From positions 1 through 41,073 of IMG/VR virus record IMGVR_UViG_3300033150_000609: a stretch of 41,073 bases of DNA. One strand, given 5' to 3'. The position numbers and the translations under genes were made by a program. The DNA is from a virus. The notes beneath the pieces were generated by a model. The model made no database searches and was not told the DNA's origin. It was given only the letters and a program-made list of their open reading frames with translations. Positions 7,762-19,458 of the stretch are shown here, piece by piece. Numbering within the stretch: the stretch's first letter is position 1; each line of letters opens with the position of its first letter.

Positions 7762-7830
7762 TCATTTCCCCGTCCCCGTGATTATCCAAATAAATAACAG
7801 CGAAAAAACCATAAGTAACGCCGGTATCAT
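7762..7830 (-). CDS. Tiny membrane peptide (22 aa)
   Basis: 22 residues (MIPALLMVFSLLFIWIITGTGK), essentially one membrane helix. It overlaps the 31-aa membrane peptide upstream by ATGA, and its stop sits in the ribosome-binding region of the 161-aa gene. The overlap organisation favours a translated gene; a translational-coupling function for its neighbours is the alternative. Confidence 0.45.
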   Translation of the reverse strand: MIPALLMVFSLLFIWIITGTGK

Positions 7831-7922
7831 TTTTTCCCCCTCTTTTTTCTCGCTCCTATCCTCTCCCATACAATCCCCAGATATATCGCCACGAAACTGA
7901 TTATTATGTAGAGGATTAGCAT
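7827..7922 (-). CDS. Tiny membrane protein (31 aa)
   Basis: 31 residues: a hydrophobic helix (MLILYIIISFVAIYLGIVW) followed by ERIGARKKRGKK. N-out or N-in topology cannot be fixed, but the positive tail suggests the C-terminus is cytoplasmic. It begins inside the end of the cytosine methylase and overlaps the 22-aa peptide. Function unknown. Confidence 0.5.
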   Translation of the reverse strand: MLILYIIISFVAIYLGIVWERIGARKKRGKK

Positions 7923-8859
7923 TTTCGCCTTTCATATTTCATTATTCTTTTTCCTATCCACTCAACCACATTCACCGTAACAGCATTGCCTATTACTACT
8001 CCTCGCACAGCGTCCAGTCGTCCGAAAATCCCTGAAGGCTCTCTTTTTCGTTCGGGGTTAGTTTCCGCAATATGAGTGTCTTGCCATATAAAGGAAGTGT
8101 TGCCCCTTTTTGTTGCTCCGAGTGTTTGGCTAACGAGGTTTTCGTCTCTATTATATCTATCTCCTTTTTTCGCTTGTATTGTTTTAGCGACAATGTTTTC
8201 TCCCTCAAATTTAAAGGGGCTTCCTTGCCCGTCACGATTGACTCTAATTGTTGAAGCGACAAGAGTTTCATTTGTTGGGTCTTGGCTTGCCCCGTCTCTT
8301 GTAGAAATACATAACCCCCTCTGCCCCATTTTTTGGACCTTCTTATCATTCCCGAAACCGCCTTTTTCGTCAAATAGTATTTCGGGTGGACAGATGTTTC
8401 CAAAATATCCGACAATGAACAAACGTCTGCGTCTCTGGGCGACTCCGAAGTATTGAGAGTTAAGTATTCTCCACAAAACGCCATACCCGATTTTTTGCAA
8501 GTCGCTGATAACTTTTGAAAAGTCCCTTCCGCCATTAACGGATAAAAGCCCGGGAACATTCTCTCCAAGAAACCATTGCGGATTAAATATTCGCAAACAC
8601 CTTGCCACTTCTTCCCAGAGTCCGCTCCCTTCGTGCTGCATACCCGCCCTCTTGCCTGCGATTGAATTCCCCTGACAAGGCCACCCCGCACACAAAAGGT
8701 TGATATGTCTGTATGTTTCGGGATTTTTGGATATTGCTTTTTCAAGATTTTCAAAGCATACGGCATTATTTCTATTTGACCTTTGCACTTAAATCCCGCC
8801 CTTTCCAACCCTAAATCCATACCCCCACAACCAGAGAACAAAGATATAAAAGTTTTCAT
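7916..8859 (-). pseudogene. 5-cytosine DNA methyltransferase broken across reading frames
   Basis: Conserved C5-methylase motifs appear in order, but in two frames. The frame starting at 8859 has motif I (LFSGCGGMDLGLERAGF). The middle is in a second frame: catalytic PCQGNS, ENVPGLL and QRRRRLFIVGY. Then motif IX (ILRKLTPNEKESLQGFSDDWT) is back in the first frame, and motif X (VIGNAVTVNVVEWIGKRI) is again in the second. So at least three frame changes are needed: near 8690-8740, near 8060-8070 (one extra base at ATT-G-CGG restores HIRKLTP) and near 8000-8015. The residue quality within each piece is high. Either the gene is recently inactivated or the assembly has local indel errors. The catalytic Cys piece lacks motif I, so a functional single product is unlikely as sequenced. 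Confidence 0.85.
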
Positions 8860-14186: not shown

Positions 14187-14822
14187 TTAAACCACCCTCT
14201 TTTCGCTGATAAATTTTACGCCCGGAATAGTGGACTGCCCTTTTGTTTCCCTTGCCCTTGCATTAAGTTTTGACATATTCAGGTCAAAGAACTCCATAGG
14301 AATTTTACTTATATCAGTAACAACTGCGCTCCAATAAGTTCTTTTCTGAACGCCATCTACTTTTTGCACGGTAGAACTTAACACCGGCGCAATTACTTCT
14401 TCGGCTTTTTCTTCATATTTTTCCGCCTTTGCTGTCTTCCCCGCTTCTTCTGCCAACTTTGCCTTTTCTCTCAATTCCGCCTCTTTCTTTTCTGCGGCTC
14501 TGCGGAGTTTCGCTTCTTCTTCGGCTCTTTTCTTTTCTTCCTTTTCAACGAATTGCGAAAGTTTTAACTTTACAATCGTATGGGCTGAATCAACAGGGTC
14601 AAAATACTTTGCTTTCTGTGCTTTAGATGCCTTGAGCGATTCTTTCGCCTTCTCAATTCCTGTGTCAAATGCTTCATTGATTTCTTTCTTCAATGCCTTA
14701 ATTACTTTCATAAAATCCGTTCCCACAACATACTGGTCATTGTTAGTAACCACCAAAGCATTTGCCTTTACTACAACATCGCCCGACTTTTTCTCAACCG
14801 CAACAATCATTTCATTTGACAT
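14187..14822 (-). CDS. Phage coiled-coil recombination-associated protein (DUF1351-like)
   Basis: 211 residues. Residues about 40-135 are charged helix (KKRAEEEAKLRRAAEKKEAEL), and the C-terminal piece about 150-211 ends in STIPGVKFISEKRV, as in the phage proteins that lie before recombinases. The helical part may form a rod. No catalytic motif. It is the first gene after a promoter and terminator-like leader and so leads the recombination operon. Confidence 0.68.
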   Translation of the reverse strand: MSNEMIVAVEKKSGDVVVKANALVVTNNDQYVVGTDFMKVIKALKKEINEAFDTGIEKAKESLKASKAQKAKYFDPVDSAHTIVKLKLSQFVEKEEKKRAEEEAKLRRAAEKKEAELREKAKLAEEAGKTAKAEKYEEKAEEVIAPVLSSTVQKVDGVQKRTYWSAVVTDISKIPMEFFDLNMSKLNARARETKGQSTIPGVKFISEKRVV

Positions 14823-14830
14823 AATTTCCC

Positions 14831-14890
14831 CCTAAAAATAAAAATCCCGCCGCCCCAGAATGCGAAAGTAAACTGGGATACGACGGGAAA
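14831..14890 (-). terminator. Terminator/attenuator-like hairpin in leader of recombination operon
   Basis: On the minus strand, TCCCG and CCCAG (plus 84-88 and 73-77 of this block) pair with CTGGG and CGGGA to make a two-part stem with a short internal loop, followed by TTTTTATTTTT. It lies between the promoter at 14940-14968 and the first gene at 14822. It could be a normal terminator for upstream transcription or an attenuator controlling its own operon. Confidence 0.7.
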
Positions 14891-15853: not shown

Positions 15854-15903
15854 CTCAAACCTCCTCTCTCCGGCATAATTCGGGGTTCTCGTTCTGTTTT
15901 CAT
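15850..15903 (-). CDS. Very short ORF (17 aa), possible coupling peptide
   Basis: A 17-codon frame (MKTEREPRIMPERGGLR) joined by ATGA overlaps to both the ACP stop and the 115-aa start. It holds the ribosome site of the next gene. It may be a translated coupler or chance. Confidence 0.25.
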   Translation of the reverse strand: MKTEREPRIMPERGGLR

Positions 15904-16145
15904 AACATCTCCTTTTTTACACATTCAACTATTTTATTGATAGTGTTGAATTTTTTCTCTTTACCGTCGGGGATTTCAATACAAAATTTATCTTCAATGT
16001 TTATTATAATCTCTACTAAATCTAATGAATCTGCCCTAAAGCCAGATTTGAATGTTATATCAGAATTAATATCTGATACTTTGACGTTAAAATGTTCGGC
16101 AACTACTTTTTTAACTCTTTCCTCAATTTGCAATTCTTCTTTCAT
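15900..16145 (-). CDS. acpP: Acyl carrier protein
   Basis: 81 residues, the usual ACP length. Four-helix layout: EERVKKVVAEHFNVKVSDI, then GFRADSLDLVEIIINIEDKF with the phosphopantetheine-attaching Ser at about 40 in a DSL motif, and a C-terminal helix INKIVECVKKEML. It is strongly acidic around the DSL helix. GGGGGAATT is upstream. In bacteria ACP carries acyl chains for lipids and other products; an autonomous phage copy is unusual. No acyltransferase or synthase is adjacent, so a host 4'-phosphopantetheinyl transferase and partner enzymes would be needed. The genuine substrate is unknown. Confidence 0.85.
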   Translation of the reverse strand: MKEELQIEERVKKVVAEHFNVKVSDINSDITFKSGFRADSLDLVEIIINIEDKFCIEIPDGKEKKFNTINKIVECVKKEML

Positions 16146-17026: not shown

Positions 17027-17401
17027 CTATTCCTCCCTGCCTGCAAATTCTTCTTCTTCCTCTTGATATTCATTTTCCCTACATCTTTGGCAAGTATATC
17101 TGTCCTCAATTCCCGGTTCGTATTTTACAGCAAAAATTCCATCACATATCTTACAGCGAGCGGGGTAGTTCTTGCCGTCGTCGTTATAAATCGGCTTTGC
17201 AATTTCCTTTTTCGCCGTAATAAAATCCGCAATCTTCGGTCTAAACTGCCCTTTATTCACTTCCTTACAAATCCGCCCCCATTCTTCTTCAGTAATGCTT
17301 TTCATTTCAGCGAAGATTTCATACTTTATTTCAAGTCCAAATGTGAAATGATAGTTATCTTCAATCTTCTTTAATCCTGCGTCTAATATGGCGGGTTTCA
17401 T
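17027..17401 (-). CDS. Putative helicase-loader-like protein with zinc ribbon
   Basis: 124 residues. Residues 1-65 (GLKKIEDNYHFTFGLEIKYEIFAEMKSITEEEWGRICKEV) have the helical layout of phage helicase-loading/inhibitor proteins such as SPP1 G39P, and about 75-110 carry a zinc ribbon CKICDG...CQRCRE. The tail is acidic. It lies directly after the DnaD-like gene with a 4-base overlap, where a loader or loader antagonist would be expected. Similarity is by eye and should be treated as a hypothesis. Confidence 0.45.
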   Translation of the reverse strand: MKPAILDAGLKKIEDNYHFTFGLEIKYEIFAEMKSITEEEWGRICKEVNKGQFRPKIADFITAKKEIAKPIYNDDGKNYPARCKICDGIFAVKYEPGIEDRYTCQRCRENEYQEEEEEFAGREE

Positions 17402-18108
17402 TTCTTCCCCTCCTTTTCCTCTACAAACTCCGCAAAACTCTTTTCCGGCTTTGGCTTAAATTTGCCGTATTTTATATTATTCCTTATCCAAGTCCTGAAC
17501 CGCCGGGAAACATCAAAGACCTTTTCCATTTGCCACCGTTCTTTAAGACCGCCCTTTGACTTTTCAGTCCAATAGTCCAAAAACTCTTTTTTAAGGAGTA
17601 ATTCTTCTTTATTAAATTTGTTTTCTATTTCGTTGAATAATAATAATATATTATCTTTTTCTTTATCTTTATCCTTGTCTTTATCTTTATCTTTATCTTT
17701 AGGGGCTACATTGACCCCAACTTGACCCCAACCAAAACCAAGAGCCGTCTGCTCTATATCATCAAAATAAACTCCTTCATATTTACTATAAATCTTTAAT
17801 ATCCCCTTATGACAATGATTTTTTTTGTCTAACTCGGAAAATTTAACCCCATACTGAAATTTCAGAAAATTTTTAATATACCATTTACCATCTGGCAGAA
17901 CCGCTATTTTATTTTTTAGATACTTCTGTATATCTTCCCTTTTGATTTTCAGACCTATTTGAAATTCTGCGAGTTCTATATCTTTTTCCCATATCCCCGC
18001 AAAGTCACAATTCATACAAAGGTAAAACCAAAATAATTTTATTGTCACGGGAGTTTTTCTAAATTTTTCTTTTCCAAAAATATCGGCGTCAATAAATCTT
18101 TTTTTCAT
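17398..18108 (-). CDS. DnaD-like phage replication initiator protein
   Basis: 236 residues. N-terminal about 1-105 resembles a winged-helix replisome-organiser domain (TIKLFWFYLCMNCDFAGIWE, AEFQIGLKIKREDI, KWYIKNFLKFQYG). Then comes a linker made of alternating Lys-Asp pairs (about 136-150). The C-terminal part (LKKEFLDYWTEKSKGGLKERWQMEKVFDVSRRFRTWIRN) resembles phage DnaD C-terminal domains. It would bind the origin and recruit the host helicase. The linker DNA is a hexamer repeat that may be the origin itself. It lies in the operon with the zinc-ribbon loader candidate and after the 35-aa ORF (ATGA). Confidence 0.78.
   Translation of the reverse strand: MKKRFIDADIFGKEKFRKTPVTIKLFWFYLCMNCDFAGIWEKDIELAEFQIGLKIKREDIQKYLKNKIAVLPDGKWYIKNFLKFQYGVKFSELDKKNHCHKGILKIYSKYEGVYFDDIEQTALGFGWGQVGVNVAPKDKDKDKDKDKDKEKDNILLLFNEIENKFNKEELLLKKEFLDYWTEKSKGGLKERWQMEKVFDVSRRFRTWIRNNIKYGKFKPKPEKSFAEFVEEKEGKK
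17630..17702. repeat. Hexamer repeat plus AT-rich stretch, possible replication origin
   Basis: About eight hexamers of CTTTAT or near variants (17655-17702) follow a 30-base AT-only-like stretch (17630-17660). On the coding strand this is the Lys-Asp linker. Lambdoid phages place their origin iterons in the linker of the initiator gene. The same layout here is suggestive but a simple low-complexity linker is the null explanation. Confidence 0.45.
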
Positions 18109-18212
18109 ATTTTTGAAACGAGGGTGGGGGAAGGCGTCGTCAAGATTCCTTCCCCCAATGGCAAAGATTCCCTCGCTTTTGTTTCCTGTGAATTGACGAC
18201 CTTTTTATTCAT
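18105..18212 (-). CDS. Short ORF after promoter, possible leader peptide (35 aa)
   Basis: 35 codons (MNKKVVNSQETKARESLPLGEG...) ending in ATGA overlap with the DnaD-like gene. The ATG is only nine bases after the TAAAAT box of promoter 18222-18250, so a leaderless mRNA is likely. A 9-base inverted repeat lies inside it. Could be a leader peptide or a true small protein; low confidence. Confidence 0.4.
   Translation of the reverse strand: MNKKVVNSQETKARESLPLGEGILTTPSPTLVSKI
18126..18156. repeat. Perfect 9-bp inverted repeat before replication gene
   Basis: GGGGGAAGG (18126-18134) and CCTTCCCCC (18148-18156) can form a stable stem with a 13-base loop in the RNA, ending about 18 bases before the DnaD-like start codon. 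There is no T-run, so it is a translational or protein-binding hairpin more likely than a terminator. Confidence 0.6.
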
Positions 18213-18221
18213 AATTTCTAA

Positions 18222-18250
18222 ATTTTAGCAAACTCCCAAAAACCTGTCAA
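18222..18250 (-). promoter_or_regulatory. Sigma70-like promoter of replication genes
   Basis: TTGACA (18245-18250) and TAAAAT (18222-18227) on the minus strand with 17-base spacing. It is between the 88-aa gene and the DnaD-like gene. The expected start is about 18215, a few bases from the ATG of the 35-aa ORF. Confidence 0.8.
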
Positions 18251-18302
18251 GTAGCAAAATCCACTTTTCACGCTTTCGTGTTACGCCCCGACGCTGTTTC
18301 AT

Positions 18303-18569
18303 TTATTCACTTGCCAATAATTTTTCTATAATATCAAAATCAACTTCGCCAACGGCTGATTGTAGTCGCCGCAATTCCGCCACCAGTTCAGCGTTTCTGG
18401 ACTTGAGGTTATTTATTTTATTACATAATTTAGCAATAGTTCCAGCAGGGGGATATTTCCTCAAATCCTCGACCTCGGCTTTGAGTGCGTCCCGCTCGGT
18501 AAGTAAATCCTTGCGGTCAGTTATTAATTCTTCAAACAAAAACTCTTCTATAACAATCGGTTTGCTCAT
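18303..18569 (-). CDS. Coiled-coil early protein (88 aa)
   Basis: 88 residues, a long coiled coil (about 15-75: LLTERDALKAEVEDLRK, NKINNLKSRNAELVAELRRL) then a short acidic tail. It is the first gene after the control region and has AAGGAGG. Its leader RNA is highly structured. It could be a regulator or antitermination partner, but there is no known family. Confidence 0.65.
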   Translation of the reverse strand: MSKPIVIEEFLFEELITDRKDLLTERDALKAEVEDLRKYPPAGTIAKLCNKINNLKSRNAELVAELRRLQSAVGEVDFDIIEKLLASE

Positions 18570-18592
18570 CTCACTACCTCCTTAAAGTTTGC

Positions 18593-18646
18593 GGGGGCGG
18601 GCAGACCATTGGCTAAAAGGCATACGCCTGCCATTATTACGCCCCC
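18593..18646 (-). ncRNA. Structured 5' leader element upstream of first early gene
   Basis: On the minus strand GGGGGCG (18640-18646) pairs with CGCCCCC (18593-18599), and inside it GGCAG (18628-18632) pairs with CTGCC (18600-18604), leaving a 7-base one-sided bulge. An alternative small hairpin AGGC/GCCT (18618-18629) would exclude the inner helix, so two folds are possible. It ends 24 bases before the ATG. It is too short for a tRNA. Likely a cis-regulatory RNA. Confidence 0.5.
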
Positions 18647-18647
18647 A

Positions 18648-18724
18648 ACCGGCTCAGACCGGTAAAAAAAGCCCTGCCATAACATAAGGCGGATACGCAA
18701 GTATTCCCTATGCCAGACAGGGCT
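18648..18724 (-). terminator. Intrinsic terminator-like hairpins downstream of main early promoter
   Basis: AGCCCTG (minus strand, 18718-18724) pairs with CAGGGCT (18670-18676) around CATA/TATG and an inner ATAC/GTAT hairpin. It is followed directly by seven T residues (18664-18670) and another palindrome ACCGG/CCGGT (18648-18663). This is a well-formed intrinsic terminator 60-110 bases after the promoter's start, so it may act as an attenuator or need antitermination. Confidence 0.75.
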
Positions 18725-18781
18725 ATAAAAACTTTTCTTTTTTCTCCGAGTTTATTCGCGCATCCCTTTTTCATCAATACG

Positions 18782-18811
18782 ATTATACAACGAAAGGGTT
18801 TTATTTGTCAA
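18782..18811 (-). promoter_or_regulatory. Main early promoter (sigma70 consensus)
   Basis: TTGACA (18806-18811) and TATAAT (18782-18787) on the minus strand, spacer 18. CCCC precedes -35. It lies in the only long intergenic region of the genome (18570-18909) just after the lysis genes, and reads into the early region. The rest of this region holds the leader structures and a palindrome at 18843-18866. Confidence 0.87.
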
Positions 18812-18842: not shown

Positions 18843-18866
18843 AACACGATTAAGGCAATTCGTGTT
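18843..18866. promoter_or_regulatory. Operator-like palindrome upstream of early promoter
   Basis: AACACGA (18843-18849) and TCGTGTT (18860-18866) are exact inverted copies 10 bases apart, about 32 bases upstream of the -35 box. This is consistent with a binding site for a dimeric regulator, or a weak terminator for the lysis genes (a T-run is 14 bases farther along). I favour an operator. Confidence 0.5.
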
Positions 18867-18909: not shown

Positions 18910-19458
18910 TTATTTTTCTACCAGATTTTTAATGTATTCACTCGCCCGAAGTTTGCCATACATATTTTTTAACTTCGTAACATAGTTCGGGTCGGTTGCA
19001 TAAAGATATTTTCCTGCGACTAATCCGATAAAATAACTTTCAGGATTTTCCCGGTTCTTAAATGACAAAGGATAGAGCCGTTTAATTAAACTGCCATACC
19101 ATATCAGCGCCTCTGCCAATGTTTCCCAGTCGGCAAAATAAAGATTGACCTTTCTTTTTACACCGCTGATATATTCGTGCGTCGTGATATAGGCAACTTT
19201 TCCAGTCCACATCTTCGGCTTTTTAATCCCGAAATAATTATTCCCGATTGCCTTTTCAAATCCGCCTGTTTCGTGAAAAGCGTGTGTGAAGACAGCCCAG
19301 CGGTTAAAGTTTTCAAAATCGCAAAAAGGGCGCAGGACTTCAAGAAACTTCTTCATCTTTTTCACATCGCAACCGAGGTCGCATTTACAGGGATTTTTAC
19401 CTATCTCAAAAAAGAAAGATAGTATTTTATTAAAGATACTCACAAAAAAGCGTTTCAT
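18910..19458 (-). CDS. Endolysin, glucosaminidase (GH73)-like
   Basis: 182 residues. The catalytic domain (about 45-175) has FTHAFHETGGFEKAIGNNYFGIKKP with catalytic Glu near 63, WTGKVAYITTHEY, YFADWETLAEALIWYGS and GKYLYATDPNYVTKLKNMY, all typical of GH73 lysozyme-like glucosaminidases that cut the glycan of peptidoglycan. The N-terminus (KRFFVSIFNKILSFFFEI) is hydrophobic but weak as a signal; with the holin-like genes upstream it may be released through a pore. It is the last gene of the late region. Confidence 0.87.
   Translation of the reverse strand: MKRFFVSIFNKILSFFFEIGKNPCKCDLGCDVKKMKKFLEVLRPFCDFENFNRWAVFTHAFHETGGFEKAIGNNYFGIKKPKMWTGKVAYITTHEYISGVKRKVNLYFADWETLAEALIWYGSLIKRLYPLSFKNRENPESYFIGLVAGKYLYATDPNYVTKLKNMYGKLRASEYIKNLVEK

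Follow-up and report, generated by a model that had tools for sequence, protein, structure and literature searches.

A conserved two-hairpin and ribosome-site element beside a possible variable gene slot in the early leader of a mosaic phage

The DNA analyzed here (the window) is a phage contig of 41,073 bases from IMG/VR in which nearly all plausible genes lie on the minus strand. As the genes at this locus are all on that strand, the leader is read from 18811 down to 18570. An endolysin/glucosaminidase gene at 18910-19458 closes the structural and lysis genes, and the early genes start with an 88-aa ORF at 18569. The 340-base gap before this ORF contains the leader features (Table 1). Among named phages, the closest terminase, from a Thermoanaerobacterium phage, is 36% identical.

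Table 1. Features of the early leader and of the gene that follows it
Feature	Positions	Strand	Basis
Early promoter, TTGACA-18-TATAAT	18782-18811	minus	12/12 sigma-70-type match
Intrinsic terminator, 55-nt hairpin (18670-18724) with 19-bp stem, plus seven T	18664-18724	minus	fold, d-score
Hairpin A, loop CUGA/UCUG	18648-18663	minus	folds in window, G001, G002
Hairpin B, 7-bp stem, 7-nt bulge UAAUAAU, 7-bp stem, large loop	18593-18646	minus	fold
Possible micro-ORF MAGVCLLANGLPAPANFKEVVR inside hairpin B	18566-18634	minus	read directly from sequence
Shine-Dalgarno AAGGAGG within conserved TAAGGAGGTAGTGAGATGA	18577-18583	minus	invariant in all relatives
First gene, 88-aa predicted coiled coil	18303-18569	minus	ORF

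Relatives were sought with the neighboring proteins and with the core pattern of the two hairpins and ribosome site (the element), which was found in three further contigs. G001 (IMGVR_UViG_3300033145_001026) is colinear with the window once circular permutation is allowed for, with ~85-95% identity across most structural genes. G002 (3300033388_004179) and G003 (3300033144_005004) are 99.8% alike in their overlap and each is only partly related to the window; comparisons of the element involve three independent sequences only. The window and G001 align as circular permutations of one another, an arrangement that suggests near-complete, terminally redundant or circular genomes. Matches to the core pattern in Rheinheimera, Moellerella, Pseudooceanicola and Marinomonas genomes were rejected as chance, having unrelated contexts and no further similarity, and a weak model match in L051 (510-553, E 6.9) was dropped because it lies inside a coding frame. 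The element model had no match in 50 more distant viral contigs. Wider DNA searches of phage and plasmid collections, which may lack near relatives, also gave no match.

The promoter is the strongest early promoter of the window phage, and transcription is predicted to start at ~18775. Homology to G001 (86% over 374 nt) runs through the promoter and ends at ~18765, ten bases past the predicted start, while G002 has a different promoter in the matching position. A perfect inverted repeat at 18843-18866, AACACGA-N10-TCGTGTT, lies ~32 nt upstream of the -35 box and is a possible operator; its right arm is not retained in G001. The entire 242-nt leader folds with a z of -2.78, and 1 of 200 shuffles was as good.

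The first-pass annotation had placed a long stem with a T-run between this promoter and its first gene, and the feature is both real and so positioned. The segment folds at -30.1 kcal/mol (z -5.17, 0/200 shuffles as good), and, as expected of an intrinsic terminator, a GC-rich hairpin is followed directly by a U-run. In a d-score scan it reached d = 21.1, with a 53-nt stem of -28.4 kcal/mol and the run TTTTTTT. The coding strand of the window has four terminator sites with d > 0, compared with a mean of 0.42 in shuffled windows (n = 60), two of which reached d >= 21. The two best coding-strand sites, at 14845-14888 (d 22.3) and in the leader, each lie between a strong promoter and a gene. The same scan gave no site with d > 0 on the coding strand of G001 or G002, and ORFs occupy the place of the leader terminator in both. 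Among the phages found, the terminator is thus specific to the window phage. A 45-aa ORF (MKKGCANKLGEKRKVFIALSG...) at 18774-18637 begins beside the predicted transcription start, crosses the terminator and ends at a stop codon within the hairpin B bulge; it is not kept in G001 or G002.

Downstream of the terminator, the palindrome and the two-helix element noted in the first-pass annotation were confirmed. The palindrome forms hairpin A, which in the window reads ACCGGU-CUGA-GCCGGU (-7.8 kcal/mol, z -2.8). The corresponding hairpins are UUCCGGUU-UCUG-GGCUGGAA in G001 and AACUGGUU-UCUG-AGCCGGUU in G002. Between these two, seven of the 16 stem bases are changed and all eight pairs are retained, two of them through double changes. 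With hairpin boundaries picked after the folds were seen, random placement of equally many changes would retain all pairs with a probability of ~0.002, and at most 69% of the pairs survived when the partner was shifted by one, two or three columns. A within-pair shuffle control (127/500) is weak, as it draws on two sequences only.

Hairpin B folds at -26.3 kcal/mol (z -2.85), and one more wobble pair, which changes from U-G to U-A in G001, lengthens it to 18592-18647. The alternative fold that had been proposed for it exists at -22.3 kcal/mol, weaker by 4 kcal/mol with RNA parameters, and DNA parameters favor a fold of this alternative kind. Across the three phages hairpin B is identical except for one outer-stem change from G-C to G-U; with the core otherwise invariant, its pairing is barely tested. 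Covariation, the check named in the first-pass annotation, is present for hairpin A, while hairpin B has single compatible changes only and the terminator has no counterpart in the relatives in which to seek it. A reading of the 7-bp outer stem as that of a tRNA was discarded, since no tRNA was found. Hairpin B stacks directly on hairpin A, and when the full element is folded no unpaired bases separate the two in any of the three phages. The two-helix element also adjoins the ribosome site as originally described, with AAGGAGG ~10 nt downstream of hairpin B. This site is only partly paired in the predicted folds and its pairing differs among the three phages, so that simple sequestration of the ribosome site is not indicated.

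The conserved part of the leader spans 18566-18663 and comprises hairpin A, hairpin B and TAAGGAGGTAGTGAGATGA. Over 82-93 nt, it is 98% identical in G001 and ~93-94% identical in G002 and G003. These mosaic phages also share further blocks of 45-62 nt at 100% identity, so the conservation of the element could partly reflect recent exchange. On both sides of the element the sequences have been exchanged. Its upstream neighbor is the terminator in the window, a DUF6874 ORF in G001 and an 83-aa ORF in G002, and the genes downstream, of 88, 125 and 61 aa, respectively, are unrelated. Homology to G001 returns at 18647, so that the segment between the shared flanks is ~118 bases in the window versus ~402 bases, including the DUF6874 ORF, in G001. 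Each genome has one copy of the element, and the ribosome site alone is doubled, in G002 and G003 only. In G002 the second copy of this 17-nt sequence precedes a homologue of the 88-aa gene further down, and the repeat borders an extra cassette, as would be expected if genes were swapped at the ribosome site. From its sequence, the arrangement looks like a cassette inserted at that point.

The 88-aa protein has weak matches, below the cut-off, to coiled-coil-type Pfam families, and homologues in G002 and G003. The stop of the micro-ORF overlaps the start of this gene (ATGA), and its own Shine-Dalgarno sequence, GGGGG, is sealed within hairpin B in the predicted fold. The micro-ORF is not favored as a coding gene because one of the differences in hairpin B alters an amino acid yet keeps the RNA pair, and because its C-terminus is displaced in G002 by a deletion of 4 nt. 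It had no match in the phage collection.

The leader was compared with known regulatory systems. A metabolite- or protein-binding leader, one of the initial proposals, found no support in the cis-regulatory and riboswitch families of Rfam, where there were no matches at gathering scores and the best weak matches had E values of 3.6 or worse. Promoter-proximal attenuators likewise have a strong terminator after the promoter and ahead of the first gene, but the leader of the window is without a conserved antiterminator, sensor or leader peptide, and its terminator is unconserved. The putL and putR sites of HK022 consist of ~70 nt with two adjacent stem-loops in an early transcript (PMC9378689), a layout shared by hairpins A and B at 18593-18663. 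However, the hairpins of the element abut the ribosome site, and its relatives have no clear downstream terminators. The defining activity of put is to suppress downstream termination via the zinc-binding domain of the RNA polymerase beta-prime subunit. To find the put sites, two stretches of the HK022 immunity region were identified by their similarity to each other, not by annotation. Local alignment of the element to them gave scores of 18 and 24 (P 0.21 and 0.08), and putL against putR scored 42.

Structured RNA early in the operon of a mobile element is also known from canT of Tn916 and from antitermination in Gram-positive conjugation operons (PMC11658703, PMC8955417). The activity of canT was mapped to segments of 341-452 nt and tested experimentally, whereas the element described here is known from sequence and predicted folds. 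The SAS/ESAS sequences of Cluster K mycobacteriophages similarly combine an inverted repeat with a ribosome-site-like sequence before unrelated non-structural genes in a mosaic group of phages (PMC3203893). They occur in many copies per genome, their repeats do not support RNA pairing, and their function is unknown (PMC3203893). In contrast, the element is present in a single copy per genome and hairpin A has pair-preserving change.

Taken together, the leader is best read as three successive parts, a conserved promoter, a variable slot for genes and a conserved, cis-acting module of RNA hairpins and ribosome site, with the terminator filling the slot in the window. A probability of roughly 0.4 is assigned to this reading. 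Since only hairpin A, hairpin B and the ribosome site are common to the relatives, and stand before unrelated genes, the control part is likely to be the shared element and not the terminator. We infer the following on whether transcription does stop, on how translation or stability is affected, on the order of events and on how the element works. The early leader of these mosaic phages would be modular, leading from a promoter (conserved, or a different one in G002) through the slot to the two-hairpin RNA and a strong ribosome site. In G001 and G002 the slot would be filled by a short accessory gene, and in the window by a terminator after ~50 nt. Most transcripts from the window promoter would then end at ~18664 as an RNA of ~110 nt, and read-through past this point would supply the early genes. 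The module itself would most likely act in cis on the mRNA immediately before the next gene, through stability or ribosome access. It would shield the RNA and give the ribosome site constant surroundings, so that any gene placed behind it would be expressed evenly.

The position of the terminator would also suit a transcription attenuator, in which most early transcripts end at the stem and read-through is permitted by a factor, by a translating ribosome or by an alternative pairing of the leader. The strength of the stem (z -5.17, d = 21.1), the second promoter-terminator-gene arrangement in the window (14968/14845-14888/14822) and the 45-aa ORF running from next to the predicted start through the terminator all fit this explanation. 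In addition, both the terminator and hairpin B are possible pairing partners of the 5' leader, and such a pairing is the predicted fold at 100 nt. However, these pairings are weak (P 0.0045-0.11) and not retained in G001 and G002, so that a mutually exclusive antiterminator pairing is not conserved. The leader is also too short for a known sensor, none is matched in Rfam, and no phage antiterminator gene was recognized. A terminator in the matching place is missing from both relatives that carry the element, which speaks against the early proposal that promoter, terminator and hairpins form one attenuator. An attenuator is considered unlikely. Somewhat more doubtful is a processive antitermination RNA of the put or canT type, in which the nascent hairpins would bind RNA polymerase and carry it past later terminators of the early operon such as 14845-14888. 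Two adjoining hairpins of ~72 nt in an early transcript recall HK022 put in their layout (PMC9378689), the window has a strong terminator ~3.7 kb downstream, and in G002 a terminator-like stem lies ~700 nt downstream. Against this, sequence similarity to put is absent (P 0.08-0.21), the coding strands of G001 and G002 have no terminator with d > 0, and the element stands directly at the ribosome site, which put need not do. The leader terminator lies upstream and beyond reach of the element, which could not antiterminate a site that it follows; put-like control of that terminator, as once suggested, does not hold.

Two further explanations are both improbable. The promoter and terminator might together produce a small phage RNA of ~110 nt (18775-18664), forming a cassette that does not depend on the gene downstream. 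Their spacing suits a small RNA gene and the segment is swapped as a unit in the relatives (118 bp vs 402 bp), but the hairpin core was seen nowhere else in the viral contigs, and we know of no conserved seed or target. Slightly less probable still is that the element is a DNA-level boundary guiding gene exchange, conserved for recombination and not for RNA function. Such short boundary sequences were proposed earlier for phage mosaicism (PMC3029335), and the near-identical block between non-homologous flanks and the 17-bp ribosome-site repeat around the extra G002 cassette would agree with one. Nevertheless, hairpin A alters its sequence yet retains its pairing, which simple recombination homology does not need.

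A bolder reading seems rather unlikely. Hairpins A and B would be an undescribed, protein-free RNA control module at a plug-in site for early accessory genes, either antiterminating the operon or standardizing expression of the next gene. The analysis is a modest addition, a new and narrow family of structured leaders known from four contigs. It tells a phage-specific terminator apart from a shared RNA and ribosome-site module, and it points to a swap site for early genes. Such sites often carry phage anti-defense genes. Should the module act on the host polymerase or ribosomes by itself, it could serve as a compact, portable part for gene expression.

Several other loci of these phages were also noted. 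A second promoter, TTGACA-17-TATACT, at 14968-14940 is followed by the terminator at 14845-14888 (d 22.3) and by AGGGGG, a Shine-Dalgarno sequence directly before the gene at 14822; G002 has the same promoter with a different hairpin after it. The region 18109-18302 has a promoter-like site (18250-18222) and then a long stem just ahead of a replication-type gene at 18108. A 35-aa ORF overlaps this stem, and its end forms ATGA with the start of the 18108 gene. The matching leader of G002 (17289-17353) has a multi-branched stem, then ATTTTTAT and a Shine-Dalgarno sequence. An intergenic block at 7827-7926 is 99% identical to G001 and 90% to G002, and has an apparent 31-aa membrane peptide, MLILYIIISFVAIYLGIVWERIGARKKRGKK. 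Finally, the early region at 15900-16145 contains a phage-encoded acyl carrier protein-like gene (PP-binding, Pfam E 2e-7).
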